A stretch of 64,000 bases of DNA from Anadara kagoshimensis (Eukaryota > Mollusca > Bivalvia > Arcoida > Arcidae), in the NCBI GenBank assembly GCA_021292105.1, contig CM037869.1, positions 186,001-250,000 on the forward strand, read 5' to 3'. How positions within the stretch are numbered: position 1 is the first letter of the stretch; each line of letters begins with the position of its first letter. The notes under the pieces were generated by a model. The model did no database searches, was not told the DNA's origin, and saw only the letters and a list, made by a program, of their open reading frames with translations. Below, piece after piece: positions 15,306 through 46,020 of the stretch. The position numbers were made by a program, and so were the translations under genes.

Positions 15306-16462
15306 AACAAACACAACATATCGGTCCATGTTCAAATCACAACCCCAAAAGTCAAACACAAACATATCAGTCCATGTTTAAATCACAACCCTAAAAAAGT
15401 CAAACACAAACATATCGGTCAATGTTCAAATCAATATCCCAAAAGTCAAACACAACATATCGGTCCATGTTTAAATCACAAACCCAAAAGTCAAACAAAC
15501 ATATCGGTCCATGTTCAAATCACAAACCCAAAAGTCAACACAAACATACCAGTCCATGTTCAAATCACAAACCCAAAAGTCAAACACAAACATATCGGTC
15601 CATATCATGGTCAAATCACAACCCCAAAAGTCAAACACAAACATATCGGTCCATGTTCAAATCACAAACCCAAAAGTCAAAACAAACATATCGGTCCATG
15701 TTCAAATCACAAACCCAAAAGTCAACACAAACATTTCGGTCCATGTTCAAATCACAAACCCAAAAGTCAAAACAAACATTTCGGTCCATGTTCAAATCAC
15801 AAACCCAAAAGTCAAACACAAACATTTCGGTCCATGTTCAAATCACAAACCCAAAAGTCAAACACAAACATATCGGTCCATGTTCAAATCACAAACCCAA
15901 AAGTCAACACAAACATTTCGGTCCATGTTCAAATCACAAACCCAAAAGTCAAACACAAACATATCGGTCCATGTTCAAATCACAAACCCAAAAGTCAACA
16001 CAAACATATCGGTCCATGTTCAAATCACAAACCCAAAAGTCAACACAAACATTTCGGTCCTTGTTCAAATCACAAACCCAAAAGTCAAACACAAAGATAT
16101 CGGTCCATGTTCAAATCACAAACCCAAAAGTCAAACACAAACATATCGGTCCATGTTTAAATCACAAACCCAAAAGTCAAAACAAACATATCGGTCCATG
16201 TTCAAATCACAAACCCAAAAGTCAACACAAACATACCAGTCCATGTTCAAATCACAAACCCAAAAGTCAAACACAAACATATCGGTCCATGTTCAAATCA
16301 CAACCCCAAAAGTCAAACACAAACATATCGGTCCATGTTCAAATCACAACCCCTAAAGTCAAACACAAACATAACGGTCCATGTTCAAATCAATATCCCA
16401 AAAGTCAAACACAAACATATCGACCCATGTTCAAATCACAAACCAAAAAGCAAAATTTTGAA
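15306..16462. repeat. 49-bp satellite family, 46-bp variant (array A)
   Basis: About 25 units with period 46, containing ACAAACATATCGGTCCATG, TTCAAATCACAA and CCCAAAAGTCAAAC. Alignment by eye shows it is a shortened relative of the 49-bp unit at 24965-33960 (AACATACTAATCCATG, AATCACAATCC, AGCAAAGTAAA). Open plus-strand frames of up to 354 codons arise because the unit lacks stops; all frames give the same scrambled peptide. Confidence 0.95.
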
Positions 16463-16736
16463 ATCGGACAAATTAATTATAAGTAAAACAGGTAAACTTC
16501 CATCATAGAATACATTTTTTGTCAAGTTAAATATGTGAATTCATTGTATAATACAAATGCAAAGTTCGATTTCCGTTAAATTAATACTAAACATCTGTCA
16601 TGACGTGTTTTATACAGTTGGGCATGATAAAAACGTGTGTGGGTTAACTTGTTCTCAACATAACACGTGTAGTCTAGCGAAATAATGTATATTAATGAAA
16701 CGTCCTTCGGAAGTAGCATAGGTCTATCATATAATC

Positions 16737-17405
16737 AAAAACAAACATACCAACGAATGTTAAAACCCAAAGCAAAGTAAAAACTTTGAATCTGGCAAAT
16801 GAGGTTAAACACGTTAACATCCACCAGGGAAGTGGAACCAGGTGCTCCGGTAGACCACGTTAACATCCACCAGGGAAGTGGAACCAGGTGCTCCGGTAGA
16901 CCACGTGAACATCCACCAGGGAAGTGGAACCAGGTGCTCCGGTATACCACGTGAACATCCACCAGGGAAGTGGAACCAGGTGCTCCGGTAGACCACGTGA
17001 ACATCCACCAGGGAAGTGGAACCAGGTGCTCCGGTAGACCACGTGAACATCCACCAGGGAAGTGAAACCAGGTGCTACGGTAGACCATATGAACATCCAC
17101 CAGGGAAGTGGAACCAGGTGATCCGGTAGACCACTTGAACATCCACCAGGGAAGTGGAACCAGGTGCTCCGGTAGACCACGTGAACATCCACCAGGGAAG
17201 TGGAACCAGGTGCTCCGGTAGACCACGTGAACATCCACCAGGGAAGTGGAACCAGGTGCTACGGTAGACCACGTGAACATCCACCAGGGAAGTGGAACCA
17301 GGTGCTCCGGTAGACCACGTGAACATCCACCAGGGAAGTGGAACCAGGTGCTCCGGTAGACCACGTGAACATCCACCAGGGAAGTGGAACCAGGTGCTCC
17401 TGTTG
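16737..17405. repeat. One 49-bp-type unit, linker, then 46-bp module B array
   Basis: A single 49-bp-family unit (16737-16780) runs into the linker AAAAACTTTGAATCTGGCAA. About 13 copies of a 46-bp unit follow, with CACGTGAACATCCACCAGGG and AAGTGGAACCAGGTGCTCCG. The same linker and a single copy of this module occur at 33961-34070, 36463-36560, 38890-38995 and 45906-46020, and inverted at 37945-38111 and 39940-40100. Here the module itself has been amplified. Minus-strand frames of up to 213 codons are repeat artefacts. Confidence 0.93.
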
Positions 17406-20400
17406 ACTATAGCTACCTCCTGTTTAGCTAGGTATACCTTCCTGTTTAGCTAGGTATACCTTCCTGTTTAGCTAGGTATTCCTTCCTGTTTAGCTAGGTA
17501 TACCTTCCTGTTTAGCTAGGTATACCTTCCTGTTTAGCTAGATATACCTTCCTGTTTAGCTAGGTATACCTTCCTGTTTAGCTAGGTATACCTTCCTGTT
17601 TAGCTAGGTATACCTTCCTGTTTAGCTAGGTATTCCTTCCTGTTTAGCTAGGTATTCCTTCCTGTTTAGCTAGGTATACCTTCCTGTTTAGCTAGGTATA
17701 CCTTCCTGTTTAGCTAGGTATACCTTCCTGTTTAGCTAGGTATACCTTCCTGTTTAGCTAGGTATACCTTCCTGTTTAGCTAGGTATTCCTTCCTGTTTA
17801 GCTAGGTATTCCTTCCTGTTTAGCTAGGTATACCTTCCTGTTTAGCTAGGTATACCTTCCTGTTTAGCTAGGTATACTTTCCTGTTTAGCTAGGTATACC
17901 TTCCTGTTTAGCTAGGTATACCTTCCTGTTTAGCTAGGTATACCTTCCTGTTTAGCTAGGTATACCTTCCTGTTTAGCTAGGTATACCTTCGGTATACCT
18001 TCCTGTTTAGCTAGGTATACTTTCCTGTTTAGCTAGGTATACCTTCCTGTTTAGCTAGGTATACCTTCCTGTTTAGCTAGGTATACCTTCATGTTTAGCT
18101 AGGTATACCCTCCTGTTTAGCTAGGTATACCTTCCTGTTTAGCTAGGTATACCTTCCTGTTTAGCTAGGTATACCTGCCTGTTTAGCTAGGTATACCTTC
18201 CTGTTTAGCTAGGTATACTTTCCTGTTTAGCTAGGTATACCTGCCTGTTTAGCTAGGTATACCTTCCTGTTTAGCTAGGTATACCTTCCTGTTTAGCTAG
18301 GTATACCTTCCTGTTTAGCTAGGTATACCTTCCTGTTTAGCTAGGTATACCTTCCTGTTTAGCTAGGTATACCTTCCTGTTTAGCTAGGTATACCCTCCT
18401 GTTTAGCTAGGTATACTTTCCTGTTTAGCTAGGTATACCTTCCTGTTTAGCTAGGTATACTTTCCTGTTTAGCTAGGTATACCTTCCTGTTTAGCTAGGT
18501 ATACCTTCCTGTTTAGCTAGGTATACCTTCATGTTTAGCTAGGTATACCCCCCTGTTTAGCTAGGTATACCTTCCTGTTTAGCTAGGTATACCTTCCTGT
18601 TTAGCTAGGTATACCTGCCTGTTTAGCTAGGTATACCTTCCTGTTTAGCTAGGTATACTTTCCTGTTTAGCTAGGTATACCTGTCTGTTTAGCTAGGTAT
18701 ACCTTCCTGTGTAGCTAGGTATACCTTCCTGTTTAGCTAGGTATACTTTCCTGTTTAGCTAGGTATACCTTCCTGTTTAGCTAGGTATACCTTCCTGTTT
18801 AGCTAGGTATACCTTCCTGTTTAGCTAGGTATACCTTCCTGTTTAGCTAGGTATACCTTCCTGTTTAGCTAGGTATACCTTCCTGTTTAGCTAGGTATAC
18901 TTTCCTGTTTAGCTAGGTATACCTTCCTGTTTAGCTAGGTATACCTTCCTGTTTAGCTAGGTATACCTTCCTGTTTAGCTAGGTATACCTTCCTGTTTAG
19001 CTAGGTATACCTTCCTGTTTAGCTAGGTATACCCTCCTGTTTAGCTAGGTATACTTTCCTGTTTAGCTAGGTATACCTTCCTGTTTAGCTAGGTATACTT
19101 TCCTGTTTAGCTAGGTATACCTTCCTGTTTAGCTAGGTATACCTTCCTGTTTAGCTAGGTATACCTTCATGTTTAGCTAGGTATACCCTCCTGTTTAGCT
19201 AGGTATACCTTCCTGTTTAGCTAGGTATACCTTCCTGTTTAGCTAGGTATACCTGCCTGTTTAGCTAGGTATACCTTCCTGTTTAGCTTGGTATACTTTC
19301 CTGTTTAGCTAGGTATACCTGCCTGTTTAGCTAGGTATACCTTCCTGTTAGCTAGGTATACCTTTCTGTTTAGCTAGGTATACTTTCCTGTTTAGCTAGG
19401 TATACCTTCCTGTTTAGCTAGGTATACCTTCCTGTTTAGCTAGGTATACCTTCCTGTTTAGCTAGGTATACCTTCCTGTTTAGCTAGATATACCTTCCTG
19501 TTTAGCTAGGTATACTTTCCTGTTTAGCTAGGTATACCTTCCTGTTTAGCTAGGTATTCCTTCCTGTTTTGCTAGGTATACCTTCCTGTTTAGCTAGGTA
19601 TACTTTCCTGTTTAGCTAGGTATACCTTCCTGTTTAGCTAGGTATACCTTCCTGTTTAGCTAGGTATACCTTCCTGTTTAGCTAGGTATACCTTCCTGTT
19701 TAGCTAGGTATACCTTCCTGTTTAGCTACGTATACCTTCCTGTTTAGCTAGGTATACCTTCCTATTTAGCTAGGTATACCTTCCTGTTTAGCTAGGTATA
19801 CCTACCTGTTTAGCTAGGTATACCTTCCTGTTTAGCTAGGTATACTTTCCTGTTTAGCTAGGTATACCTTCCTGTTTAGCTAGGTATACCTTCCTGTTTA
19901 GCTAGGTATACCTTCCTGTTTAGCTAGGTATACCTTCCTGTTTAGCTAGGTATACCTTCCTGTTTAGCTAGGTATACCTTCCTGTTTAGCTAGGTATACC
20001 CTCCTGTTTAGCTAGGTATACCTTCCTGTTTAGCTAGGTATACCTGCCTGTTTAGCTAGGTATACCTTCCTGTTTAGCTAGGTATACCTTCCTGTTTAGC
20101 TAGGTATACCTTCCTGTTTAGCTAGGTATACCTTCCTGTTTAGCTAGGTATACCTTCCTGTTTAGCTAGGTATACCTTCCTGTTTAGCTAGGTATACCTT
20201 CCTGTTTAGCTAGGTATACCTTCCTGTTTAGCTAGGTATACCTTCCTGTTTAGCTAGGTATACTTTCCTGTTTAGCTAGGTATACCTTCCTGTGTAGCTA
20301 GGTATACTTTCCTGTTTAGCTAGGTATACTTTCCTGTTTAGCTAGGTATACCTTCCTGTTTAGCCAGGTATACTTTCCTGTTTAGCTAGGTATACCTTCC

Positions 20401-21345
20401 TGTTTAGCTAGGTATACCTTCCTGTTTAGCTAGGTATACCTTCCTGTTTAGCTAGGTATACCTTCCTGTTTAGCTAGGTATACCTTCCTGTTTAGCTAGG
20501 TATACCTTCCTGTTTAGCTAGGTATACCTTCCTGTTTAGCTCGGTATACCTTCCTGTTTAGCTCGGTATACCTTCCTGTTTAGCTAGGTATACCTTCCTG
20601 TTTAGCTAGGTATACCTTCCTGTTTAGCTAGGTATACCTTCCTGTTTAGCTAGGTATACCTTCCTGTTTAGCTAGGTATACCTACCTGTTTAGCTAGGTA
20701 TACCTGCCTGTTTAGCTAGGTATACCTTCCTGTTTAGCTAGGTATACCTGCCTGTTTAGCTAGGTATACCTTCCTGTTTAGCTAGGTATACCTGCCTGTT
20801 TAGCTAGGTATACCTGCCTGTTTAGCTAGGTATACCTTCCTGTTTAGCTAGGCATACCTTCCTGTTTAGCTAGGTATACCTGCCTGTTTAGCTAGGTATA
20901 CCTGTTTAGCTAGGTATACCTGCCTGTTTAGCTAGGTATACCTTCTTGTTTAGCTAGGTATACCCTCCTGTTTAGCTAGGTATACCTTCCTGTTTAGCTA
21001 GGTATACCTGCCTGTTTAGCTAGGTATACCTTCCTGTTTAGCTAGGTATACCTTCCTGTTTAGCTAGGTATACCTTCATGTTTAGCTAGGTATACCTTCC
21101 TGTTTAGCTAGGTATACCTTCCTGTTTAGCTAGGTATACCTTCCTGTTTAGCTAGGTATACCTTCATGTTTAGCTAGGTATACCTTCCTGTTTAGCTAGG
21201 TATACCTTCATGTTTAGCTAGGTATACCTTCCTGTTTAGCTAGGTATACCTTCCTGTTTAGCTAGGTATACCTTCCTGTTTAGCTAGGTATACCTTCATG
21301 TTTAGCTAGGTATACCTTCCTGTTTAGCTAGGTATACCTGCCACG
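17406..21345. repeat. 22-bp satellite array (module C), about 179 units
   Basis: Highly regular tandem array of TTCCTGTTTAGCTAGGTATACC, described as TTCCTGTTTAG plus CTAGGTATACC. Each unit holds the 8-bp palindrome GGTATACC and the 6-bp palindrome TAGCTA. Variants are mostly single substitutions (GGTATTCC, GGTATACT, ACCTGCC). A single TAGCTAGCTA-type segment stands in this position in the unexpanded copies of the element, so this array is an amplified module C. The array ends TGCCACGTATTAA, matching the CGCCACGTGT that ends the element elsewhere. Confidence 0.96.
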
Positions 21346-21378
21346 TATTAAATAATTGAGAATCAAAGGGACATTGAA

Positions 21379-21710
21379 CTATGAGACGTCAGATATATCC
21401 AGGACAATCCTGGTCACAGAGACATCATACTCACCAACAATACTGTGATGACGACCATAAAACTTTTTGAGGGCACTGATAAGTCTAGGTTTGCTCACTA
21501 GGATAGATAACATTCACATAATCTCCAATTTTGGGATTATTAAGAGATAACACGTCATGTGTAGTTGAATGATTTGTCGACAGCATTCTCTCCAGATTTA
21601 ACAAAGTTCTCTCTAGCGTTTGTTTTTGCTTCATGCGAATACAGAAACAAACCAGCAAGAACCCCTAATAGTCTGTGCCCATTGGTACTCCGATTTTGTG
21701 CTGAATAGTT
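21379..21710 (-). pseudogene. Reverse transcriptase remnant, Penelope-like type
   Basis: Reading the minus strand from 21710: QHKIGVPMGT (RT motif B), GLFLYSHEA, then a frame with DVLSLNNPKIGDYVNVIY (just after the catalytic DD box, which is damaged here). An internal deletion then joins directly to LISALKKFYGRHHSIV, ending at a TAG (21379-21381). The order of GxPMG, FLYxxE, xxDD and a conserved C-terminal tail is the layout I associate with Penelope-like elements and relatives in marine animals; that class call is inference. It is plainly dead. It sits head-on against the 22-bp array with the same spacing as the unexpanded copies. Confidence 0.65.
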
Positions 21711-22827
21711 ACATTACAAAACACAACAAATATGTTGGTTAACAACAACAACATTTTGTTGATGGTATCTTTAGTATATTTTTGTTTGGAATCTGTATGA
21801 TGCTTGACAAAATAACCAGAATCCCTGTTCAGCACCAGGGCTTAACGCTTTTGTAAACAAATGACAAGCTAATTTGTTTTAGACGCGTGTCACTTAATCT
21901 GGACCGATACGAGGTTGGTTAATAATAACAAATAAGAATTGAAACGAGGATAGTTGCTATTGAAAATTATTTCCCTTTGTGCTTTCGGTTTAAGTGTTCC
22001 ATCTTGTAAAAGAAAAAGTGCCATGAACTAAGAATGATGGGTACACGTGGACATTTACCTAGATCTTAAAGAGAATCACTCATTTTTAAAATGCACCAAT
22101 TGGGATGAAGAATGTTACATTTTGAGGTCCGTATGCCGGTATACGGATAGACAACATGTCTCTATTTTTTTCAGATTTCAAACCTTTACCCAAGGTGGCA
22201 TCTGCAACATCAGTATTATCTTAGCTAAATGAGATTATCATATGACAATAAATGTTAAAACTTACCCGACTCATGATCTCTCAGTAATTCTACTCGGCGT
22301 CGAGGATCAGTGACTCTACCGGCGACGAACATGTATATAGTTATATCACATGTGAGGGAATTGTTTATAACACCCAATATGTTATAGAACACGTTGTGTA
22401 CAACTGTTAACGTGATGTTACTGCCAGATAAGATGCCACATCTCTGATTGTAGTGATCTCATTGATTCTTTAGCTGTTTTTTAAATGATTAAAATTGACT
22501 AAATTGCCATATGTCGTACAAATCAAATGTTTATTATAGTATTTAACAGCTTTTACAGCCAGAAATTATAATACATTGTTAATATTATCTGTAATTTAAT
22601 CGGAGATCATCAGATCATCAGCAATCGTGAAGGTTATAATCTTTAGAATTAAAAAGATTTCATCTTAGGCTAAAACAATTAAACTTTTTAACAATATATT
22701 TTAAACTCTTTCTAGCTTTCAGATTATACTAATATTCTGGGGAATTGATCACAACAATTATATATGCAATTTTTCATTAATATTTTTCAAACCATATTCT
22801 AACATATAAACATTAATATAAAAAGTC
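21711..22827. other. Unique AT-rich spacer, no gene supported
   Basis: No convincing gene. A minus-strand open stretch ending in a good donor (GAGTCGG|GTAAGT, about 22266-22335) reads MFVAGRVTDPRRRVELLRDH. It could be a small first exon, but no matching acceptor or partner exon in the required phase was identified. Confidence 0.4.
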
Positions 22828-24862
22828 TAAAACAAATATACCGGTATATGTTCATATCACAATCCTAAAAGATAAGTAATAACTTTGAAACTTAAATTTC
22901 CAGAGACGTAAATCCGTCTGCAGCCCCAGGAAAGTAAAGCCGTGAGCAGCTCCAGGAAAGTAAAGCAGTGTGCAGCTCCAGGAAAGTAAATCCGTGTACA
23001 GCTCCAGAGACGTAAAGCCGTGTGCATTTCCAGGGACGTAAAGCCGTGTGCAGCTCCAGGAAAGTAAAGCAGTGTGCAGCTCCAGGAAAGAAATCCGTGA
23101 GCAGCTCCAGGAAAGAAAAGCCGTGAGCAGCTCCAGGAAAGTAAAGCCGTGAGCAGCTCCAGGAAAGTAAAGCAGTGTGCAGCTCCAGGAAAGTAAAGCC
23201 GTGTACAGCTCCAGAGACGTAAAGCCGTGTGCATTTCCAGGGACGTAAAGCCGTGTGCAGCTCCAGGAAAGTAAAGCAGTGTGCAGCCCCAGGAAAGTAA
23301 AGCCGTGAGCAGCTCCAGGAAAGTAAAGCAGTGTGCAGCTCCAGGAAAGTAAAGCCGTGTACAGCTCCAGAGACGTAAAGCCGTGTGCATTTCCAGGGAC
23401 GTAAAGCCGTGTGCAGCTCCAGGAAAGTAAAGCAGTGTGCAGCTCCAGGAAAGAAATCCGTGAGCAGCTCCAGGAAAGAAAAGCCGTGAGCAGCTCCAGG
23501 AAAGTAAAGACGTGAGCAGCTCCAGGAAAGTAAAGCAGTGTGCAGCTCCAGGAAAGTAAAGCCGTGTACAGCTCCAGAGACGTAAAGCCGTGTACAGCTC
23601 CAGAGACGTAAAGCCGTGTGCATTTCCAGGGACGTAAAGCCGTGTGCAGCTCCAGGAAAGAAAAGCCGTGTGTAGCTCCAGGAAAGTAAAGCCGTGTGCA
23701 GCTCCAGGAAAGAGAAGCCGTGTGCAGCTCCAGGAAAGAAAAGCCGTGTGTAGCTCCAGGAAAGTAAAGCCGTGTGCAGCTCCAGGAAAGAGAAGCCGTG
23801 TGCACCTCCAGGAAAGTAAAGCCGTGTGCAGCTCCAGGAAAGTAAAGCCGTGTGCAGCTCCAGGGATGTAAAGCCGTGTGCAGCTCCAGGACAGTAAAGC
23901 CATGAGCAGCTCCAGAAAAGTAAACCCGTGTGCAGCGCCAGGAAAGTAAAGCCGTGTGCAGCTCCAGGAAAGTAAAGCCGTGTGCAGCTCCAGGAAAGTA
24001 AAGCCGTGTGCAGCTCCAGGGATGTAAAGCCGTGTGCAGCTCCAGGGATGTAAAGCCGTGTGCAGCTCCAGGAAAGTAAAGCCGTGTGCATCTCCAGGGA
24101 TTAAAAGCCGTCTGCAGCTCCAGAGACGTAAAGCCGTGTGCAGATGCAGGGACGTAAAGCCGTGTGCAGCTCCAGGGAATCAAAGCCGTGTGTATCTCCA
24201 GCGACGTAAAGCCGCCTGCAGACGCAGGGACGTAAAGCCGTGTGCAGCTCCAGGGACGTGAAGCTGTGTGCAGCTCCAGTGACGTAAAGCCGTGTGCATC
24301 TCCAGGGAAGTAAAGCCGTGTGCAGATACAGGGACGAAAAGCCGTGTGCATCACCAGGAATGTAAAGTCGTGTGCAGTTCCAGGAATGTAAAGCTGCGTG
24401 CAGCTCAAGGGAAGTTAAGCTGTGTGCATATCTAGGGACGTAAAGCCGTGTGCAGCTCCATAAAAGTAAAACCGCGTGCGGCTTCAGGAAAATAAAGCCG
24501 TGTTCAGCTCCAGGAATGTAAAGCCGTGTGCAGCTCCAGGGACGTAAAGCCGTGTGCAGCTCCAGGAAAGTAAAGTCGTGTGCAGCTCCAGGGACAAAAA
24601 GTGTGTAGCTCCAGGGACAAAAAGCCCTGTGTAGCTCCAGGAAAGTAAAGTCGTGTTCAGCTCCAGGAATGTAAAGCCGTGTGCAGCTCCAGGGACGTAA
24701 AGCCGTGTGCAGCTCCAGGAAAGTAAAGTCGTGTGCAGCTCCAGGAAAGTAAAGCCGTGAACAGCTTCAGGGACGTAAAGCCGTGTGCAGCTCCAGGGAC
24801 GTAAAGCCGTGTGCAGCTCCAGGAACGTAAAGCCGTGTGTAGATCCAGGGACGTTAATCCTA
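22828..24862. repeat. 26-bp satellite array with one 49-bp-type unit at its left edge
   Basis: One degenerate 49-bp-family unit and the AACTTTGAAACT linker (22828-22895) precede about 75 units of a 26-bp repeat, CAGCTCCAGGAAAGTAAAG plus CCGTGTG. Variants (GGGACGTAAAG, CATTTCC, GAGCAGC) recur in blocks. The unit resembles part of module B (CCAGGGAAGTGAGGCCGGGT), so it is probably the same element amplified with another period. Minus-strand frames of 518, 399 and 348 codons all come from this array: the unit has no stop in that strand and 26 is not a multiple of 3, so all three frames encode one permuted peptide. Confidence 0.95.
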
Positions 24863-24964
24863 CTAGAGAGATATAAATCATCATTAGTATATAACATACA
24901 CGTCAATATAGGTCACATGTTGTAATAAGGAACACCAACATCAATCCAATCAATTAATAATAAT

Positions 24965-27900
24965 AAAATACATACTGATCTATGTCCGAACCACAACTAA
25001 GAAGAAAAGTAACAACAAACATACTAATCCATATTCGAATCACAACCCAAAAGCAAAGTAAAATCAAACATACTAATCCATGTCTGAATCACTATCCAAA
25101 TGCAAAGTAAAAACAAACATACTTATCCATGTCTGAATCACAATCCAGAAACAAAGTAAAAACAAACATACTTATCCATGTCTGAATCACAATCCAGAAA
25201 CAAAGTAAAATCAAACATGCTAATCCATGTCCGAATCAATGTCCAGATGCAAAGTAAAAACAAACATGCTTATCATGTCTGAATCACAATCCAGAAACAA
25301 AGTAAAAACAAACATACTAATCCATGTCTTAATCACAATCCAGAACCAAAGTAAAAACAAACATACTAATCCATGTCTTAATCACAATCCAGAACCAAAG
25401 TAAAAACAAAACATACTCATCCATGTCTTAATCACAATCCAGAACCAAAGTAAAAACAAACATACTAATCCATGTCTTAATCACAATCCAGAACCAAAGT
25501 AAAACAAACATACTCATCCATGTCTTAATCACAATCCAGAACCAAAGTAAAACAAACATACTAATCCATGTCTGAATCACTATCCAAATGCAAAGTAAAA
25601 ACAAACATACTTATCCATGTCTGAATCACAATCCAGAAACAAAGTAAAAACAAACATACTTATCCATGTCTGAATCACAATCCAGAAACAAAGTAAAATC
25701 AAACATACTAATCCATGTCCGAATCAATGTCCAGATGCAAAGTAAAAACAAACATGCTTATCATGTCTGAATCACAATCCAGAAACAAAGTAAAAACAAA
25801 CATACTAATCCATGTCTTAATCACAATCCAGAACCAAAGTAAAAACAAACATACTAATCCATGTCTTAATCACAATCCAGAACCAAAGTAAAACAAACAT
25901 ACTCATCCATGTCTTAATCACAATTCAGAACCAAAGTAAAAACAAACATACTAATCCATGTCTTAATCACAATCCAGAACCAAAGTAAAACAAACATACT
26001 CATCCATGTCTTAATCACAATCCAGAACCAAAGTAAAACAAACATACTAATCCATGTCTTAATCACAATCCAGAACCAAAGTAAAACAAACATACTAATC
26101 CATGTCTTAATCACAATCCAGAACCAAAGTAAAACAAACATACTCATCCATGTCTTAATCACAATCCAGAACCAAAGTAAAAACAAACATACTAATCCAT
26201 GTCTTAATCACAATCCAGAACCAAAGTAAAACAAACATACTAATCCATGTCTGAATCACAATCCAGAACCAAAGTAAAAACAATGATACAATCCATGTCT
26301 GAATCACAATCATGTACCAAAGTAAAAACACAAACATACTAATCCATGTCTTAATCACAATCCAGTATCAAAATAAAAACAAACATACTAATCCATGTCA
26401 GAATCACAATCCAGTACAAAGAAAAACATGTCTTAATCACAACTCCAAGTAACCAAAGTAAAAACAAACATACTAATCCATGTCTGAATCACAATCCAGA
26501 ACCAAAGTAAAAAAAAACATACTAATCCATGTCTTAATCACAATCCAGAAACCAAAGTAAAAACAAACATAATAATCCATGTCTTAATCACAATCCAGAA
26601 CCAAAGTAAAACAAAACATACTAATCCATGTCTGAATCACAATCCAGAACAACCAAAGTAAAAACAAACATACTTAATCCATGTCTTAATCACAACCAGA
26701 ACCAAAGTAAAAACAAACATACTAATCCATGTCTTGATCACAATCCAGAACCAAAGTAAAAACAAACATAACTAATCCATGTCTGAATCACAATCCAGAA
26801 CCAAAGTAAAAACAAACATACTAATCCATGTCTGAATCACAATCCAGAAACAAAGTAAAACAAACATACTAATCCATGTCTGAATCACTATCCAGACAAA
26901 GTAAAAACAAACATACTAACCCATGTCTGAATCACAATCCAGAACCAAAGTAAAAAACAAACATACTAATCCATGTCTGAATCACAATCCAGAAACAAAG
27001 CAAAAACAAACATACTAATCCATGTCTGAATCACAATCCAGAAACAAAGTAAAAAAAACACTAAATCCATTCTGAATCACTATCCAGATGCAAAGTAAAA
27101 AACAAACATACTAATCCATGTCTGAATCACAATCCAGATGCAAAGTAAAACACAAACATACTAATCCATGTCTGAATCACAATCCAGATGCAAAGTAAAA
27201 ACCAAACTAACTAATCCATGTCTGAATCACAATCCAGAAAAAGTAAAAACAAACATACTAATCCCATGTCTGAATCACTATCCAGATGCAAAAAGTAAAA
27301 ACAAACATACTAACCCATGTCTGAATCACAATCCAGAACAAAAGTAAAAACAAACATACTAATCCATGTCTGAATCACAATCCAGAAACAAAGTAAAAAC
27401 AAACATACTAATCCATGTCTGAATCACAATCAGAAACAAAGTAAAAACAAACATACTAATCCATGTCTGAATCACAATCCAGAAACAAAGTAAAAACAAA
27501 CATACTAATCCATGTCTGAATCACAATCCAGATGCAAAGTAAAACAAACATACTAACCCATGTCTGAATCACAATCCAGAACCAAAGTAAAAACAAACAT
27601 ACTAATCCATGTCTGAATCACAATCCAGAAACAAAGTAAAAACAAACATACTAATCCATGTCTGAATCACTATCCAGATGCAAAGTAAAAACAAACATAC
27701 TAACCCATGTCTGAATCACAATCCAGAACCAACGTAAAAACAAACATACTAATCCATGTCTGAATCACAATCCAGAACCAAAGTAAAAACAATGATACTA
27801 ATCCATGTCTGAATCGCTATCCAGATGCAAAGTAAAAACAAACATACTAACCCATGTCTTAATCACAATCCAGAAACAAAGTAAAAACAAACATACTAAT

Positions 27901-34070: not shown

Positions 34071-34232
34071 AAACAATGTGGTTGTCTGGAAGTTTTTATT
34101 TATGTAGACGAACATATTATTATATTGTTAATATGTTAAAGCCATTTTAATATCGGCCTAGTTGTTTAGCTAAGGTTTTCTATATGGACACCAGTGCCAA
34201 ATAACTGACCAATAACATTCATCATTAATAAT

Positions 34233-34450
34233 TTAAGCATAATTTTGTGGAAAGAGGTGACTTCTGATCCTGGACACAGAGACGTCAAACTTGTCAACAA
34301 TACTGTGATAACGCCTTATTAACATGTGTGTAATCAAAATTATTAATGAAAGGAATATGGAACAATTGGACTTTAAACATATCCAGGGTAATCCTGGATA
34401 CAGAGACATCATATCAAATACGGGAACAGGATATACAAAACTATACAAAT
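34233..34450 (-). pseudogene. RT C-terminal remnants
   Basis: The minus strand contains RYHSIVDKFDVSVSRI, matching the C-terminal tail HHSIVDKFDVSVSRIALDIF of the remnant at 39375-39900. A second partial copy of the same 3' end (ATCCAGGGTAATCCTGG) follows at about 34375-34420. This is a short, dead fragment; it marks the edge of the element beside array B and overlaps the left end of the segmental duplication. Confidence 0.6.
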
Positions 34451-34851
34451 CCTAAGCGAAAGGCCAAAAGGGGCTGAAGTGCTCAAACGGCAAAAGACCT
34501 TTGCATAGTTTCTTTAAATTGGGTCTCCGAAAACCCCGTTATATCTGTTAAATTCTAAGTTATCTATTTTAATGTTTCAAATTTGAAGTCACTTTGTAGA
34601 AAATTGAACCCACAATGATCATTTTAGTGATTTTGCTATTTATAGCAACAGCAGACATCTTTGATATAATAACTGGTTGCCTTGTACAAACTTTGATCTA
34701 GCCCATCTTTAAGCCTTCCACATCAAATTTAGTTTAAATAGACCCTTTTGATTTCAGAGAAGATTAAAGTATACGCAGCACGCTCCATCAAGCCATAAGC
34801 CCAGATTGCTATAGCCAGTTAAGTTAAACAAACCCTTAAATTTCAAGTTTT

Positions 34852-34857
34852 TTTATT
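34852..34857 (-). terminator. Candidate poly(A) signal of glycosyltransferase copy 2
   Basis: AATAAA on the minus strand, about 16 nt past the stop codon. Copy 3 has the overlapping pair AATAAATAAA near 40374-40383. Such a short 3' UTR is possible but unproven. Confidence 0.35.
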
Positions 34858-34872
34858 TCAGGTCATAAATCA

Positions 34873-36027: not shown

Positions 36028-36094
36028 CTGAAAATAGATAATACAATAATATAGAGCATTTGTATAAAAAGAAACATAACCAATCGATGTCCAA

Positions 36095-36462
36095 ATCACA
36101 GTCCTAAATCATAGTAAAAACAAACATACCAATCAATGTCCAAATCACAGACCTAAAGCAAAGTAAAAACAAACATACCAATCAATGTCCAAATCACAGA
36201 CCTAAAGCAAAGTAAAAACAAACATACCAATCCATGTCCAAATCACATACGTAAAGCAAAGTAAAAACAAACATACTTATCCATGTCCAAATCACAATCA
36301 CAAAGCTAAGTAAAAACAAACATACCAATCCATGTCGAAATCACAATCCCAAAGCAAAGTAAAAACAAACATACCAATCTATTTCCAATTCACAGACCTA
36401 AAGCGAAGTAAAAACAAACATACAAATCCATGTTCAAATCACAATTCCAAAGCAAAAAAACG
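36095..36462. repeat. 49-bp satellite, short array C (about 7-8 units)
   Basis: Units with AAACATACCAATCAATGTCC and AAATCACAGACCTAAAGC, starting about 65 bp upstream of the copy 2 acceptor. The corresponding array in the duplicate (41625-45905) has about 88 units. Confidence 0.93.
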
Positions 36463-36560
36463 AATTTTGAAACTGACAAATCGTGTTAAATACTTTCCAC
36501 CAGGGAAATGAGACCGGTTGCGCCGGGAAGTTAAGTACTTCCTTTTAAGCTACCTATCCC
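36463..36560 (+). repeat. Element core after array C
   Basis: ATTTTGAAACTGACAAAT, TTTCCACCAGGGAAATGAG, a degenerate GGTTGCGCCGGG and CCCGCCACGTGT. This is a single diverged copy of the linker and modules B and C, and it matches 45906-46020 closely. Confidence 0.75.
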
Positions 36561-37711
36561 CGCCACGTGTGAGTAAAACGAGGCGCAATATACAAGGAGC
36601 CAAGAAGAGAATTGGGAAGTAAGTCGACAGCATTTTGTTAAACTTTCTACAGTTATGTGCAGAAGCATCAATGTAACATGATATTGTGTTTAAACACACA
36701 AATAGGAATACTGACGTCTGTATTCGAAATTCAAATTCTTTGCAGGTTTTCTCGGTGTTGCACCTATTTTTACATCACCATTTTCAGAATTTTACCATTT
36801 CTGTATGTAAAAGCTTTGTTTTCATATGGACTATAAAGACTCGTACCCTAAAAGACCAGCGATACCCCTTCACGGAACGACTCAACAACGCCTTTAGTAT
36901 ACTTTTGTACAGAGTGTGTCTGACTTTGTGTCTTATAAACTACGGTGGTATCGCTCGGCTTATTGGGTATGAGTCTTTAAAACGTAAATAAACACAAACT
37001 TAGTAAATTAAAACAAATGAAACAAAAACCTGCGTACCCTCTTCATAATGATCATCTTTATATCACCTTGGATTACATCCCACAACAACACGTATCCTCT
37101 TAGTTATAAACAATAGAGATTTTTTCTTTTTGGATGTATCAATAATTTATGTTGATAAATCCAACATGTAGTTTCACTCTTATCTTAGATCTGGCATATA
37201 CCTTAAAATGTCACAAGAAGTCCTATCGGGTAATTTTAAATTGTATATCAAATTGACTCAAGTTCCATTATACAATTATAAATGTGAAGTTATTTCATAA
37301 AAAAAAAATTAAACAAAAAATAAAAATAAAAAACATCTAAATCCTGTTAAAATAAAGCATCATGTTAACTTTTGCTCATTGTACTGACATAAAACAAATC
37401 TACTAAATTAAAATGTGTGTTTTGTGAAATGTTAAAATCCTAGCTGTAAAACTACATGTAGCTTCCGAACACAAAATGAATCATGTCTTTTCTCTCTCTA
37501 AGTTAAAACACAAAACAAAAAAGGTACTAAAACAAAGATAATGCATCAGCTGGCTTGTATACCTTACATAATACACAGTGTAGGTATTATCCTTATATGT
37601 ATGAGAGCGACATCTGGAGGTATAGAATGGAAAAACAAGGATAAACCCTTGTAATACTTTATGTTTTTGTGGTCCAATAACTTAATCTGAACTGATGAAA
37701 TGTCCTTTACC
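36561..37711. other. Duplicated non-coding flank, no gene supported
   Basis: Matches 46021-47133 throughout. A 101-codon plus-strand frame at 36686-36991 is broken in the duplicate by indels (CTCGGTGTTGCACC against GTTTTGCACC), so it is unlikely to be coding. A first exon or promoter of the minus-strand glycosyltransferase could lie here, but I cannot point to one. Confidence 0.55.
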
Positions 37712-37910
37712 TTATTTCCCAATTAATACGCTATGGTATAGCTTGTTCGCTCTACGGTAACTTTATAGACCAAAGCAAGCTGCTTACAAATAAATTGTTG
37801 ACCCAGGGATAATGCCAGCTTAGGTTTATTATGGATCTCAACAGTACTGTTGATAAGTTTTGTGTCTCTGTGTGTCCAGGATTGCCCTGGATATGTTTGA
37901 CGTCCCATAG
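37712..37910 (+). pseudogene. RT C-terminal remnant, degenerate (copy D)
   Basis: Reads ISQLIRYGIACSLYGNF and LLTNKLLTQG, then an in-frame stop and a scrambled HSTVDKF-type tail ending CCCATAG at 37910. It is the same protein region as the remnant at 39640-39900, which has SQLIRYGRACSYYGDF. It begins exactly where homology between the two duplication units stops. Confidence 0.6.
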
Positions 37911-38111
37911 TTCCATGTTCCTTTTGCTCAATTTTGATTACACATGTTGCAGGTGTAGCTAGTTAAATAGAAGGTGTTTAGCTTTCCGGAGCACCCGACC
38001 TTACTTTCCTTGTGGAAGTTCACATGCTTAACCTAACTCCTTATTTTCAAAGTTTTTACTTTAATTCTGGGTTGTAAATTGGACAAGGATTAGTATGTTT
38101 GTTTTTGGTGA
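37911..38111 (-). repeat. Unexpanded element core and one 49-bp unit (copy D, inverted)
   Basis: On the minus strand, in order: one 49-bp unit, AAAAACTTTGAAAATAAGG, TGAACTTCCACAAGGAAAG, GGTCGGGTGCTCCGG, a TAGCTAC-type module C, then a spacer to the RT stop. Each module is present once. Confidence 0.75.
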
Positions 38112-38785: not shown

Positions 38786-38995
38786 TATAATCAAAATATT
38801 AAAACCAAACATATCAAACCATGTCCAATCACATTCTCAAGGCAAAGTAAAAACAAACATATCAAACCATGTCCAAATAACAATCCCAAATACAAATAAA
38901 ACCATGAAACTGAGAAATTGGGTTAAACACATGAACTTCCACCAGGAAAGTGAAGTTGGATGTTCCGGAATAGTAAACACCTTCTGTTTAGCTAG
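38786..38995 (+). repeat. Two 49-bp units plus element core (copy E)
   Basis: Two degenerate 49-bp units (AACATATCAAACCATGTCC), then ATGAAACTGAGAAATTGGG, TGAACTTCCACCAGGAAAG, GGATGTTCCGG and TGTTTAGCTAGCTA. The core runs straight into an RT remnant on the opposite strand. Confidence 0.75.
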
Positions 38996-39075
38996 CTATG
39001 GGACGTCAAATATATCCATGGCAATCCTGGACACAGAGACGTCAAACTTGTCAACAATACTGTGATGACGGCTTA
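38996..39075 (-). pseudogene. RT C-terminal remnant (copy E)
   Basis: The minus strand reads ISRHHSIVDKFDVSVSRI then AMDIFDVP and a stop at 38996. This is the last part of the RT seen more fully at 39375-39900, truncated on its 5' side. Confidence 0.6.
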
Positions 39076-39374
39076 TCAACACGTGTGCAATCAAAATTAT
39101 AAATGAAAGGAATATGGAACAATTGGACTTCAAACATATCCAGGGTAATCCTGGATACAGAGACATCATATCAAATACGGGAACAGGATATACAAAACTA
39201 TGCAAAATACAATAATATTAGACTTATTATTATCCTAAGCGAGAGGCCAAAAGGGGCTGAAGTGCTCAAGCGGCAAAAGACCTTCTTTGCATAGTTTCCT
39301 TAAATTGGGTCTCCGAAAACACCGTTATATCTGTTAAATTGTCAGTTATCTATTTTCTATGATTTAACCTTGTT

Positions 39375-39900
39375 AAATCTGGAGAGAAGACTGTCGCCAA
39401 ATCGTTCAACTCAACCTACAGATATAAAGATGACGTTCTGTCTTTAACAATCCTAAATTTGGAGACTATGTAAATGTCATCTATTCTAGTGAGCTTGAAA
39501 TAAAAGACACGACTGATTCCTCAAGTTCTGTTTCATATTTAGACTTATACCTGAATTATGACGCACACGAAAGGCTATATTTGAAACTTTATGACAAACG
39601 TGATGACTTCAATTTTTCTATTGTCAACTTTCCTTTTCTATGCAGCAATATAATATACCTGCTTCTCCTGCTTATGGCGTATTTGTTTCCCAATTAATAC
39701 GCTATGGTAGAGCTTGTTCCTACTACGGGGACTTTGTACAACGAAGTAGGCTGCTTGCAAATAAATTGTTGACTCAAGGATATTGCAAGCCTTGGCTTAT
39801 CAAGGCCCTCAAAAAGTTTTATGGCCGTCATCACAGTATTGTTGATAAGTTTGATGTTTCTGTGTCCAGGATTGCCCTGGATATATTTGACGTCTCATAG
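39375..39900 (+). pseudogene. Reverse transcriptase remnant, Penelope-like type (copy F)
   Basis: From 39375: a KSFNST segment, then RYKDDVLSL with the catalytic YxDD box as YKDD (39423-39434). A missing base follows, then NNPKFGDYVNVIY, SYLDLYL, LYDKRDDFNFSIVNFPFL, a second shift near 39652, and SPAYGVFVSQLIRYGRAC to the tail HHSIVDKFDVSVSRI and stop at 39898-39900. The xxDD box followed by YLDL and KRDDF is known to me from RT genes abundant in marine invertebrates and fish; assignment to Penelope-like elements is by layout. At least two frameshifts and the loss of the N-terminal half make it non-functional. Confidence 0.68.
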
Positions 39901-40100
39901 TTCCATCTTCCTTTCACACAATTTTGATTTAACACGTGGCGGGTGTAGCTAGCTAATCAGGAGGTACTTACCCTTCTGGAGCACCCGGCCTCACTTCCCT
40001 GGTGGAAGTTCAAGTGTCTAACCTAACTTGCCAGTTCCAAAGTTTTTACTTTGCTTCTGGATTGTGATTCGGACATGGATTAGTATGTTTGTTTTTTAGT
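39375..40100 (+). mobile_element. 5'-truncated RT element insertion with core and one 49-bp unit (copy F)
   Basis: Present in duplication unit 2 but missing from the matching place in unit 1 (about 34560-34580), which gives its approximate ends. In plus orientation it holds the RT 3' half (to 39900), a spacer with AACACGTGGCGGGTGTAGC, single modules C and B (GAGCACCCGGCCTCACTTCC), the linker (CCAAAGTTTTTACTTTGC), and one 49-bp unit ending at about 40100. It is the clearest view of the unexpanded element. No clean target-site duplication was found. Confidence 0.75.
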
Positions 40101-40409
40101 TCAAATTTTGTAGAAAATTGAATCCACAATGATCATTTTAGTGATTCTGCTATTTATTGCAACATCAGACATCTTTGATATCATAACTGGTTGCCTTGTA
40201 CAAACATTGATCTAGCCCATTTTTTAGCCTTCCACACCAAATTTAGTTTCAATAGACCCCTTTGATTTAAAAAAGATTAAGTATACGCAGCACGCTTCAT
40301 CATGCCATAAGCTCAGTTTGCTATAGCCAGTTAAGTTGAAAAAAATAAAACCTTAAATTTCAATTTCAAGTTTTATTTATTTCAGGTCATAAATAGAACA
40401 TGTATATCA

Positions 40410-41564
40410 TCATTGTATATTATATATGTTAATTAGTAACTCTCGTACACAAGGAACAACTTCATTATTTATCAGGCAGTATAACTCCCTGGAATGATTC
40501 CGGAGAAAAGCCGCCATTACTCCGTAACCACTTCTCGTAAGAACGAGAACATCGCAGGAACTTAGAATCATTTGCTCCAGAAATACTTTGTTGAACTCGC
40601 TTCGTGAACTTTGACCTCTCAGTCTGTCAACATGCACTGTGTCTCCTTGTATATCAATGATCTGTTTTCCAAACTTATTTCTAGCAATATTTCTGACCTC
40701 ATTAGAATCAGATGCTATAAAGAGTTTGTATTTGTGAATGTCGTTATATCTCTGTAGAAATTTCCAGATAAGATCGAGTTCGTTAATTTGAAGTCTCGGT
40801 TTCTGATCATTCGGAATTGTCGGATTTTTACCCATACGTATGTGAACACACACCAGTTTCGAGCGATCCACTTGTTCTTTAAGCAATCTTTGTTTTTGTG
40901 CGATCAAATTTTCAGATGGCTTGAACAAAATATTAAGAATATTTGAATAAATGTCACAGTCTGACATTGACATCAACCATGGTAACTGTTTACTGGTGTT
41001 ACTATGGTGACGAATGGTGGAAACATAGTCAAGGTTACTTCTGAAATAGATCACGTCCTCTTTGAAGAATTTGTTTAAGTTCCGTAATGATAACAAATGT
41101 TTTAATTTTCTATTACCCACAGCTAAGAATCTAATGGAAGTATGATGTTTCAGTGTTGATGGTTTTATGTTCCAGTTTACCATATTGGGTTCCATATAAT
41201 CAGACAAATCAAACGCCTTCTGATGAATTATACCAAACGTTCTGTTTGTTAACATCGATATTAAATAAGAACCAACTATCCCTTTCTGACGATCAGCAAG
41301 ACCTCCACAACTTCCACTGTCACAGACGTAGATGAAAAACCTCGGGTTAGATTGCTTTGTAAGCATTGTCTCCACAATGTCGAATTTGTTGACACTACAT
41401 GGACTCTGAGATACCATTGTCTCTATAACATTATATTTGTTGACACTAAATACACTTGTGACCTGACTCTTTACGTTAGTACGCGATAGCAGGATCGTTT
41501 CCCATTTAGGGATAACTTCCAAAATTAAGAAAATTGTACCTATTATAATACACACCACAAGATC
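40410..41564 (-). CDS. Fucosyltransferase-like type II glycosyltransferase, terminal exon, copy 3
   Basis: The exon starts at 41564 after the acceptor CTATTTCAG, at the same place as copy 2, and also gives 384 residues plus stop. The membrane anchor, the CGGLADRQKGI, CVHIRMGKNPTIP and FIASDSNEV motifs, and the CDVLVLTRSGYGVMAAFL block are all intact. Twelve substitutions against copy 2 were counted; six fall in the stem just after the anchor (E for K, S for R, V for L, S for G, T for K twice), a denser cluster than in the catalytic region. No frameshift or stop in either copy suggests both are or recently were functional. The 5' exon was not found; the intron upstream holds a 4.3-kb satellite. 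Confidence 0.82.
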   Translation of the reverse strand, partial: DLVVCIIIGTIFLILEVIPKWETILLSRTNVKSQVTSVFSVNKYNVIETMVSQSPCSVNKFDIVETMLTKQSNPRFFIYVCDSGSCGGLADRQKGIVGSYLISMLTNRTFGIIHQKAFDLSDYMEPNMVNWNIKPSTLKHHTSIRFLAVGNRKLKHLLSLRNLNKFFKEDVIYFRSNLDYVSTIRHHSNTSKQLPWLMSMSDCDIYSNILNILFKPSENLIAQKQRLLKEQVDRSKLVCVHIRMGKNPTIPNDQKPRLQINELDLIWKFLQRYNDIHKYKLFIASDSNEVRNIARNKFGKQIIDIQGDTVHVDRLRGQSSRSEFNKVFLEQMILSSCDVLVLTRSGYGVMAAFLRNHSRELYCLINNEVVPCVRELLINIYNIQ

Positions 41565-41624
41565 CTGAAATAGATAATACAATAGTATAGAGCATTTATA
41601 TAAAAAGAAACATAACCAATCCAT

Positions 41625-44600
41625 GTCCAACTCACAGACCTAAAGCAAAGTAAAAACAAACATACCAATCAATGTCCAAATCACAGACCTAAAGCAAATT
41701 AAAAACAAACATACTAATCGATGTCCAAATCAGTCCTAAAGCATAGTATAAACAAACATACTAATTCCTTTCTAAATCACAATCTCAAAGTGAAGTAAAA
41801 CAAACATACCAGTCCATGTCCAAATCACAATCCCAAAGCAAAGTAAAAACAAACATACCAATCCATGTCCAAAACACAATCCCAAAGCAACGTAAAAACA
41901 AACATACCAATCCATGTCCAAATCACAGACCTGAAACAAAGCAAAAACAAACATACCAGTCCATGTCCAAATCGCAATCACAAAGCAAAGTAAAAACAAA
42001 CGTACCAATCCATGTCCAAATCACAGACCTAAAGCAAAGTAAAAACAAACATACAAATCCATGTCCAAATCACAGACCTAAAGCAAAGTAAAAACAAACA
42101 TACTAACCCATGTCCAAATCACAGACCTAAAGCAAAGTAAAAACAAACATACTAACCCATGTCCAAATCACAGACCTAAAGCAAAGTAAAAACAAACATA
42201 CTAACCCATATCCAAATCACAGACCTAAAGCAAAGTAAAAACAAACGTACCAATCCATGTCCAAATCACAGACCTAAAGCAAAGTAAAAACAAACATACT
42301 AACCCATGTCCAAATCACAGACCTAAAGCAAAGTAAAAACAAACATACTAACCCATGTCCAAATCACAGACCTAAAGCAAAGTAAAAACAAATGTACCAA
42401 TCTATGTCCAAATCACAGACCTAAAGCAAAGTAAAAACAAACATACAAATCCATGTCCAAATCACAGACCTAAAGCAAAGTAAAAACAAATGTACCAATC
42501 TATGTCCAAATCACAGACCTAAAGCAAAGTAAAAACTACCAATCTATGTCCAAATCACAGACCTAAAGCAAAGTAAAAACAAACATACCAATCCATGTCC
42601 AAATCACAGACCTAAAGCAAAGTAAAAACTACCAATCCATGTCCAAATCATAGACCTAAAGCAAAGTAAAAACAAACATACAAATCCATGTCCAAATCAC
42701 AGACCTAAAGCAAAGTAAAAACTACCAATCTATGTCCAAATCACAGACCTAAAGCAAAGTAAAAACAAACATACCAATCCATGTCCAAATCACAGACCTA
42801 AAGCAAAGTAAAAACTACCAATCCATGTCCAAATCATAGACCTAAAGCAAAGTAAAAACAAACGTACCAATCCCTGACAAAATCACAGACCTAAAGCAAA
42901 GCAAAAACAAACATACCAATCCATGTCCAAATCACAGAACTAAAGCAAAGTAAAAACTACCAATCCATGTCCAAATCATAGACCTAAAGCAAAGTAAAAA
43001 CAAACGTACCAATCCCTGACAAAATCACAGACCTAAAGCAAAGTAAAAACAAATGTACCAATCCATGTCCAAATCACAGACCTAAAGCAAAGTAAAAACA
43101 AACATACAAATCCATGTCCAAATCACAGACCTAAAGCAAAGTAAAAGCAAACATACCAATCCATGTCCAAATCACAGACCTAAAGCAAAGTAAAAACAAA
43201 CATACAAATCCATGTCCAAATCACAGACCTAAAGCAAAGTAAAAACAAACATACAAATCCATGTCCAAATCACAGACCTAAAGCAAAGTAAAAACAAACA
43301 TACAAATCCATGTCCAAATCACAGACCTAAAGCAAAGTAAAAACAAACATACCAATCCATGTCCAAATCACAGACCTAAAGCAAAGTAAAAACTACCAAT
43401 CCATGTCCAAATCATAGACCTAAAGCAAAGTAAAAACAAACATACAAATCCATGTCCAAATCACAGACCTAAAGCAAAGTAAAAACAAATGTACCAATCC
43501 ATGTCCAAATCACAGACCTAAAGCAAAGTAAAAACAAACATACAAATCAATGTCCAAATCACAGACCTAAAGCAAAGTAAAAACAAACATACTAACCCAT
43601 GTCTAAGTCACAGACCTAAAACAAAGTAAAATCAAACATACCAATCTATGTCCAAATCACAGACCTAAAGCAAAGTAAAAACAAACATACCAATCTATGT
43701 CCAAATCACAGACCTAAAGCAAAGTAAAAACTACCAATCTATGTCCAAATCACAGACCTAAAGCAAAGTAAAAACTACCAATCTATGTCCAAATCACAGA
43801 CCTAAAGCAAAGTAAAAACAAACATACAAATCCATGTCCAAATCACAGACCTAAAGCAAAGTAAAAACAAACATACCAATCCATGTCCAAATCACAGACC
43901 TAAAGCAAAGTAAAAACAAACATACCAATCCATGTCCAAATCACAGACCTAAAGCAAAGTAAAAACTACCAATCCATGTCCAAATCATAGACCTAAAGCA
44001 AAGTAAAAACAAACATACAAATCCATGTCCAAATCACACACCTAAAGCAAAGTAAAAACTACCAATCTATGTCCAAATCACAGACCTAAAGCAAAGTAAA
44101 AACAAACATACCAATCCATGTCCAAATCACAGACCTAAAGCAAAGTAAAAACTACCAATCCATGTCCAAATCATAGACCTAAAGCAAAGTAAAAACAAAC
44201 GTACCAATCCCTGACAAAATCACAGACCTAAAGCAAAGTAAAAACAAACATACCAATCCATGTCCAAATCACAGACCTAAAGCAAAGTAAAAACTACCAA
44301 TCCATGTCCAAATCACAGACCTAAAGCAAAGTAAAAACAAACGTACCAATCCCTGACAAAATCACAGACCTAAAGCAAAGTAAAAACAAATGTACCAATC
44401 CATGTCCAAATCACAGACCTAAAGCAAAGTAAAAACAAACATACAAATCAATGTCCAAATCACAGACCTAAAGCAAAGTAAAAACAAACATACTAACCCA
44501 TGTCTAAGTCACAGACCTAAAACAAAGTAAAATCAAACATACCAATCTATGTCCAAATCACAGACCTAAAGCAAAGTAAAAACAAACATACCAATCCATG

Positions 44601-45905
44601 TCCAAATCACAGACCTAAAGCAAAGTAAAAACAAACATACCAATCCATGTCCAAATCATAGACCTAAAGCAAAGTAAAAACAAACGTACCAATCCCTGAC
44701 AAAATCACAGACCTAAAGCAAAGTAAAAACAAACATACCAATCCATGTCCAAATCGCAATCACAAAGCATAGAAAAAAAAAACGTACCAATCCCTGTCAA
44801 AATCACAGACCTAAAGCAAAGTAAAAACAAATGTACCAATCCATGTCAAAATCACAGACCTAAAGCAAAGTAAAAACAAACATACAAATCCATGTCCAAA
44901 TCACAGACCTGAAGCAAAGTAAAAACAAACATACCATTCCATGTCCAAATCACAGACCTAAAGCAAAGTAAAAACAAACATACCAATCCATGTCCAAATC
45001 ACAGACCTGAAGCAAAGTAAAAACAAACATACCAATCCATGTCCAAATCACAGACCTAAAGCAAAGTAAAAACAAACATACAAATCCATGTCCAAATCAC
45101 AGACCTGAAGCAAAGTAAAAACAAACATACCAATCCATGTCCAAATCACAAACCTAAAGCAAAGTAAAAACAAACATACAAATCCATGTCCAAATCACAG
45201 ACCTAAAGCAAAGTAAAAACAAACATACAAATCCATGTCCAAATCACATACCTAAAGCAAAGTAAAAACAAACATACAAATCCATGTCCAAATCACAGAC
45301 CTGAAGCAAAGTAAAAACAAACATACCAATCCATGTCCAAATCACAGACCTAAAGCAAAGTAAAAACAAATGTACCAACCCATGTCCAAATCACAGACCT
45401 AAAGCAAAGTAAAAACAAATGTACCAATCCATGTCCAAATCACAGACCTAAAGCAAAGTAAAAACAAACATACAAATCCATGTCCAAATCACAGACCTAA
45501 AGCAAAGTAAAAACAAACAAACCAATCCATGTCCAAATCACAGACCTAAAGCAAAGTAAAAACAAACATACCAATCCATGTCCAAATCACAGACCTAAAG
45601 CAAAGTAAAAACAAACATACAAATCCATGTCCAAATCACAGACCTAAAGCAAAGTAAAAACAAACATACTAATCCATGTCTTATTCACAGACCTAAAGCA
45701 AAGTAAAAACAAACATACTAACCCATGTCTTATTCACAGACCTAAAGCAAAGTAAAAAAAACAAACATACTGATCCATGTCCAAATCACAATTACAAAGC
45801 TAAGTAAAAACAAACATACCAATCTATTTCCAATTCACAGACCTAAAGCGAAGTAAAAACAAACATACAAATCCATGTTCAAATCACAATTCCAAAGCAA
45901 AAAAA
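41625..45905. repeat. 49-bp satellite array (array G), about 88 units
   Basis: Starts about 60 bp upstream of the copy 3 acceptor. Unit: ACCTAAAGCAAAGTAAAAAC, AAACATACCAATCCATGTCC, AAATCACAG. A shortened unit lacking AAACA (AAAACTACCAATC, 44 bp) and a unit with AATCCCTGACAAAATC recur in blocks, showing higher-order duplication. Its left edge has more varied units (41625-42010). Confidence 0.96.
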
Positions 45906-46020
45906 CGAATTTTGAAACTGACAAATTGTGTTAAACACGTTCCACCAGGGAAATGAGACCAGGTGTGCCGAGAAGTTAAGTACTTCCTTTTTAGCTACCT
46001 ATACCCGCCACGTGTGAGTA
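45906..46020 (+). repeat. Element core after array G
   Basis: ATTTTGAAACTGACAAATTG, GTTCCACCAGGGAAATGAG, CAGGTGTGCCGAG, TTTTTAGCTACC and CCCGCCACGTGT: one diverged copy of the linker and modules B and C, orthologous to 36463-36560. Confidence 0.75.

Follow-up and report, generated by a model that had tools for sequence, protein, structure and literature searches.

Tandem arrays derived from the 3′ modules of an abundant retroelement in Anadara kagoshimensis: modular in origin, mostly local and private in expansion

The window considered here is the whole stretch of DNA that was analysed, 64,000 nucleotides (C13:186001-250000) of the 1.115-Gb assembly of the bivalve Anadara kagoshimensis, in which tandem arrays were located with Tandem Repeats Finder. 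Ten copies of the 3′ part of a reverse transcriptase (RT) element were examined in it, two of them (E37 and E39) on the + strand and the other eight on the − strand. Read inward from the outer edge of module A, the order is one or more A units, the linker AACTTTGAAACT, module B, module C, a spacer carrying CACGTG, and the RT 3′ end, with several copies ending before the full chain of modules is reached. The features of the ten copies are as follows.

15303–16454 (−): E15, A array of a 46-bp variant, about 25 copies, then a stretch resembling the linker and the degenerate beginning of B
16737–16793 (−): E16, one A unit and linker
16810–17407 (−): E16, B array, 46-bp unit in 13 copies; all 7 genome matches to its exact junction lie here
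17414–21339 (−): E16, C array, 22-bp unit in 178 copies; 101 exact junction matches, of which the 100 listed all lie here
21349–21778 (−): E16, RT 3′ part, disrupted by stops and frame changes
22822–22892 (−): E22, one A unit and linker
22908–24849 (−): E22, B core as a 26-bp unit, about 75 copies; all 22 genome matches to its exact junction lie here
24961–33964 (−): E24, A array, 49-bp unit in 185 copies
33962–34057 (−): E24, linker, one B, one C
34267–34570 (−): spacer and RT 3′-end pieces, paralogous to 39024–39356
36065–36570 (−): E36, A array of 7.7 units (36065–36443), linker, B, C, CACGTG
37712–38108 (+): E37, 5′-truncated RT end, spacer, C, B, linker, one A; every module single
38797–39190 (−): E38, core close to single-copy: two A units, linker, B, C and, beyond these, RT-end pieces
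39361–40098 (+): E39, 5′-truncated insertion with RT 3′ part, CACGTG, C, B, linker, one A
41601–45888 (−): E41, A array of 89 units, the segmental-duplicate counterpart of E36
45905–46016 (−): E41, linker, B, C, CACGTG, all single
59794–60623 (−): E59, A array of 16 units (59795–60611) and linker only, without B, C or RT beyond

Module A is expanded in five of the ten copies, with roughly 25 units in E15, 185 in E24, 8 in E36, 89 in E41 and 16 in E59; E38 has about two, and E16, E22, E37 and E39 about one each. Module B is expanded in E16 as a 46-bp unit (13 copies) and in E22 as a 26-bp unit (~75 copies), and C, among the ten copies, is expanded only in E16, where its 178 units adjoin the expanded B. 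An earlier, sequence-only reading of this DNA had reported four of these arrays, which were found in place (A49 at 24970–33964 and 41601–45888, with 185 and 89 units; B46 at 16810–17407, with 13; C22 at 17414–21339, with 178), and two single-copy cores (37712–38111 and 39375–40100), both real and both on the + strand. Its statement that the modules flanking an expanded one stay single breaks down at 16.8–21.3 kb, where B and C are both expanded, one next to the other, and stands elsewhere. The 26-bp B-derived array at 22908–24849, which follows an A unit and linker, had escaped it, as had further A arrays at 15308–16454 (the 46-bp variant), 36065–36443 and 59795–60611.

The same reading had proposed that the satellites stem from modules of one RT-associated element, and comparison of the units with the E39 core (~204 bp) bears this out: for each of A49, B46, C22 and B26 the local alignment score was reached by none of 1000 dinucleotide shuffles, and under another type of shuffle by 0/1000 for B46 and C22 and by 1/1000 for B26. 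The 34-, 32-, 38- and 58-bp tandem units of the window did not match this core. In all ten window copies the outer edge of A is in phase, to within 7 bp. Short direct repeats in five cores were not above the level of shuffles, so the module boundaries are not specially primed, and microhomology as a special cause of expansion was dropped on the same count. Nor was a conserved RNA fold of C and B retained, its eight predicted pairs (four changed on both sides) giving −2.7 kcal/mol with single-sequence folds in disagreement; a ribozyme within the modules was likewise set aside, there being no Rfam match of ribozyme kind.

Beyond the window, the B core has 15,186 exact copies in the genome (7,520 + 7,666; reversed control 0) and the linker junction 4,141 (control 0). 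Module order was followed at 28 loci, eight of 3 kb and twenty of 10 kb, centred on 28 of the first 31 B matches listed on contig C1, two of the remaining three matches lying inside sampled loci and one being left out. These loci hold 51 B sites with at most two mismatches, whose neighbours were sought within about 130 bases for A or linker and about 90 for C. In this sample, drawn from the first 1.3 Mb of one contig and not from random genome loci, 46 of the 51 sites have A or linker on the expected side and 29 have C there, neither ever occurring on the wrong side; for the 28 centre sites alone the counts are 27 and 19. No sampled site has a second B or two C in tandem. The order reported in the earlier reading, from the RT 3′ end through CACGTG, C, B and linker to A, is real and holds in the genomic sample. 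The refuting pattern named there, repeats usually apart from one another and from the RT remnant, is not what the sample shows, as A or linker accompanies 46 of the 51 B sites.

The arrays themselves differ in how widely they recur. The exact A–A junction has 12,191 genome copies (control 1), of which the first 100 among the matches listed form at least 19 clusters on C1, extending up to 11.94 Mb, the last of them perhaps incomplete, so that the sampling of A arrays covers the first 12 Mb of one contig. The sequence of all 19 clusters was inspected, one as its two edges only. Among these, 11 have the linker, B or both directly inside the array (ten by pattern, locus L054 by eye), one has a linker beside a single recognised unit, and seven have neither; the eleven speak for an association with the element and the seven against it. 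Over the first 4.04 Mb of C1 there are, among the matches listed, six A clusters against 100 exact B copies, and of 63 copies counted outside the window 58 have exactly one A unit, four have two and one has ten. A 46-bp A-variant array of at least 15 units lies at L028:9275-10000, outside the 63 counted copies, and a 91-bp array of other sequence at L036:5591-7746. By comparison, the exact junctions of B46 (7/7), B26 (22/22) and C22 (an exact 30-mer with 101 genome copies, none in reverse, the 100 listed all in this array) were found at one locus each, all within about 8 kb of one another in the window, through exact patterns that would miss diverged arrays. The claim that the element repeatedly seeds satellites of different period is therefore not upheld, since only A arrays were found to recur.

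The RT of the window copies is broken throughout, and the coding part was approached through the RT portion of one copy at another locus, L041, which holds open reading frames of 270 and 185 residues. The former matches RVT_1 at E 6.6e-4 with 19.9 bits, under the curated 29.6, and the latter has no profile match; the window RT fragments and a composite have no match in Pfam or NCBIfam. Searches of PDB sequences with the RT sequences found no RT, two designed helical-repeat proteins matched by the composite (E 5e-5 and 2e-4) being taken as an effect of composition, and two RT structure predictions (mean pLDDT 44 and 51) were too poor for use. L041 carries the motifs VVVPADKA, WIPKLHK, IGIPMGTNCAPLLA and YIDD, which we take to resemble those of Penelope-like RT. 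No LTR was seen, and a hammerhead ribozyme, which in Penelope-like elements lies in the terminal repeats, had no match at E ≤ 1 in the window, L001 or L002, all of which hold 5′-truncated copies. The element is probably a non-LTR retroelement of Penelope-like kind.

Two contigs from symbiont MAGs, one of which bears the name of Bathymodiolus, contain protein relatives; these contigs are presumably host DNA. When C/B was compared with the mussel relatives, its score was reached by 0/1000 shuffles for L002 copy b, 34/1000 for L002 copy a and 360/1000 for L001, so homology of C/B to these sequences is only suggestive; the stretches from L001 and L002b can be aligned to one another at 75%. Neither the 20- nor the 66-bp array of L001 matches the core. 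No relatives were found in viral contigs or plasmids, a 17-base pattern present in 13 viral contigs being taken as chance, as it came without RT matches.

A reference built from L041 gave 131 chains across the window and the other 27 loci. Of these, 107 pass the linker and 67 of the 107 end at the A edge; the other 40 count against an account in which the 3′ end is fixed. The far ends scatter, with a median of 561, a 90% point of 1001 and a maximum of 2276 in reference coordinates. Fifty-nine copies aligned at the A edge, including seven from the window of which four lie at inner array edges, share the consensus AATCAA outside it (59–95% per base), with background reached from base −7, and the edge after AATCAA is the 3′ terminus of the element. 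A common 3′ end in most copies together with scattered 5′ ends is the pattern left by retroposition from the 3′ end, and is a trait of the non-LTR type; a Helitron or Helentron, which has no RT and has both ends fixed, was rejected, as RT sequence precedes the modules and one end varies. The paralogous locus at 34.5–34.7 kb provides an empty site for the E39 insertion (~39361–40098). Target-site duplications were not detected in 58 copies with roughly placed 5′ ends (mean longest shared stretch 5.10, against 5.01 in a control of shuffled pairings), which either speaks against a plain LINE-like process or reflects the poor placing of those ends.

Segmental duplications within the window offer a view of how array length behaves after insertion. 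The stretch 36065–37713 corresponds to 45508–47124, and 34593–36456 to 40107–41989, gene-like open reading frames beside the arrays included; two copies of a 409–411-residue frame (34873–36108 and 40410–41639), with no Pfam match at E 0.001, lie next to the duplicated A arrays. Because of this duplication E36 and E41 are not independent copies, and since their flanks are 91–94% identical and their arrays hold 7.7 and 88.7 units, array length has changed without a new insertion. On C1, the A arrays L060 and L061, about 98 kb apart, with some 13 and 11 recognised units and an outer flank and inner junction in common, are probably another duplicated pair.

Kinship among units was examined in 308 A units kept of 317 found. 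The nearest unit lies within the same array for 181 of 181 units in E24, 24 of 24 in E15, 64 of 74 in E41 and 12 of 16 in E59; the corresponding figures of only 2/7 in E36 and 0/2 in E38 count against local homogenisation, a low value in E36 being expected of a duplicate of E41. The single A unit of E39 is closest to the units of E24, and that of E22 to those of E15, or to E41 when units are trimmed differently, a result that is lightly weighted. Similar copies thus differ in which module is expanded.

The window is also an island of tandem repetition. Counting arrays of period 15 or more and at least three copies, 57.8% of it is array, against a mean of 5.3% (0–22%) in the 20 sampled 10-kb loci around B sites; modules of the element supply 22.1 of the 37.0 kb, and unrelated 34-, 32-, 38-, 58- and 36-bp arrays share the window. 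It begins 186 kb into the 59.3-Mb contig C13, the first 2 kb of which carry 167- and 145-bp tandem arrays and contain neither TTAGGG nor its complement. Judged by eye, 145-bp arrays of similar consensus occur at L065 (C13:1-2000) and at the C1 loci L042:6312-7215 and L028:3930-4401, so this satellite is dispersed and not solely terminal. Within the window, at 1106–14507, a 34-bp array of about 241 copies is split in two by a − strand LINE-like element that has endonuclease and RT domains, ends in (CATT)n and looks like an insertion into the array, and at 62629–62801 there is a long hairpin, 92% self-complementary, whose Rfam microRNA matches fall below gathering scores. As unrelated arrays share the window, the simplest account would be a locality that readily multiplies any sequence, acting here on a common element, and such a regional cause is suggested by this island, although a single island cannot prove it.

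Taken together, these observations make it likely that the 3′ UTR modules of an abundant RT element, single in most copies, were expanded after insertion by local tandem duplication. A very abundant element would leave 5′-truncated copies, most ending at the same 3′ base, with a 3′ UTR of about 200 bp made up of C, B, the linker and, at the terminus, a single 49-bp unit (A). Once a copy had inserted, one or another of its modules would be tandemly duplicated, and the array would then lengthen through slippage or unequal exchange of the ordinary local kind, A at many loci and B and C in the cases found only in this window. In the island, 186 kb from the contig end, several copies have been expanded, and unrelated sequences too. 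The modular origin of the satellites in the earlier reading is on this account true, with expansion mostly local and private. The seven A clusters of 19, among the matches listed, that lack linker and B were counted against it, and they favour the view that the arrays are independent satellites which the element entered or captured, for which the satellite-like repeats carried by oyster Helentrons (PMC7492417) offer a precedent. That view is very improbable: in all ten window copies the A array or unit starts and ends at the element's own boundaries, a fixed phase of both edges that contradicts it, single-copy states dominate outside the window, and the order is reversed at none of the 51 B sites.

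A closer competitor places the origin of the A arrays in reverse transcription itself, the 3′ terminus repeating the edge of the unit (AAAAAC on the complementary strand), so that the enzyme could slip back and produce a variable tandem tail, with the B and C arrays as separate accidents. It would explain why the arrays found to recur are those of A, the terminal module. In the E39 and E37 cores AAAAAC recurs at an interval of 49 bp, and just outside the arrays of L050, L054, L055 and L063 the terminal ATC of the element itself is retained. We nevertheless regard it as unlikely, given that segmental duplicates have arrays of unequal length with no fresh insertion, that units are homogenised within most arrays, and that 58 of the 63 copies counted outside the window have a single A unit. 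Related to it is the tentative, and in our view doubtful, proposal that the 49-bp unit at the terminus acts as a retroelement tail prone to amplification, with A arrays at perhaps 1,800 loci (extrapolated to 1,115 Mb from 19 clusters among the matches listed in ~12 Mb of one contig) arising partly by RT slippage at insertion; if true, one animal retroelement would keep creating homologous minisatellites of very different length genome-wide. The expansion of A, of B with two units and of C in one window, more than half of whose array is supplied by the element, could also be read, with the earlier reading, as a special property by which its 3′ UTR seeds satellites of different period. This is improbable, as the exact junctions of B46, B26 and C22 are each confined to a single locus despite 15,186 exact B copies, none of the 51 sampled B sites has a tandem B or two C, and the unrelated 34-, 32-, 38- and 58-bp arrays share the window. 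Local duplication after insertion remains the reading we prefer.

The locus allows the origin of satellites to be followed directly in an animal genome. The single-copy starting state is supplied by thousands of copies of the element, arrays at the duplicated loci differ in length in place, and in one copy two adjacent modules have been multiplied next to each other. Because every array has a single-copy relative against which it can be aligned, slippage, unequal exchange and RT slippage become testable in this genome as models of how satellites are born.

The general idea of a retroelement 3′ UTR as a source of satellites is already published for plants. In soybean, one account describes five interleaved minisatellite families between the coding region and the LTR of Gmr9/GmOgre (PMC3305785), and another, which cites Macas et al. 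2009, derives nine Lathyrus sativus satellites from short arrays in Ogre 3′ UTRs (PMC7004042). A literature search, covering titles and the openings of abstracts among the papers listed and few subscription journals, found no account of 3′ modules expanded separately in a non-LTR or Penelope-like element. As in the plant Ogre/Tat LTR retrotransposons, different tandem units occupy a fixed place downstream of the coding region in the Anadara element and are expanded at some loci. Ogre/Tat elements are LTR elements whose copies carry short arrays, whereas here no LTR was seen, most sampled copies have each module once, and the exact B and C junctions are confined to one window. Among molluscs, the Helentron/HINE elements of Crassostrea gigas disperse satellite-like repeats (PMC7492417) and are likewise mobile elements that spread such sequences. 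Those elements are described there as non-autonomous, with central repeats mostly of 140–180 bp, whereas the arrays of this window derive from the 3′-terminal modules of an RT-coding element with variable 5′ ends.
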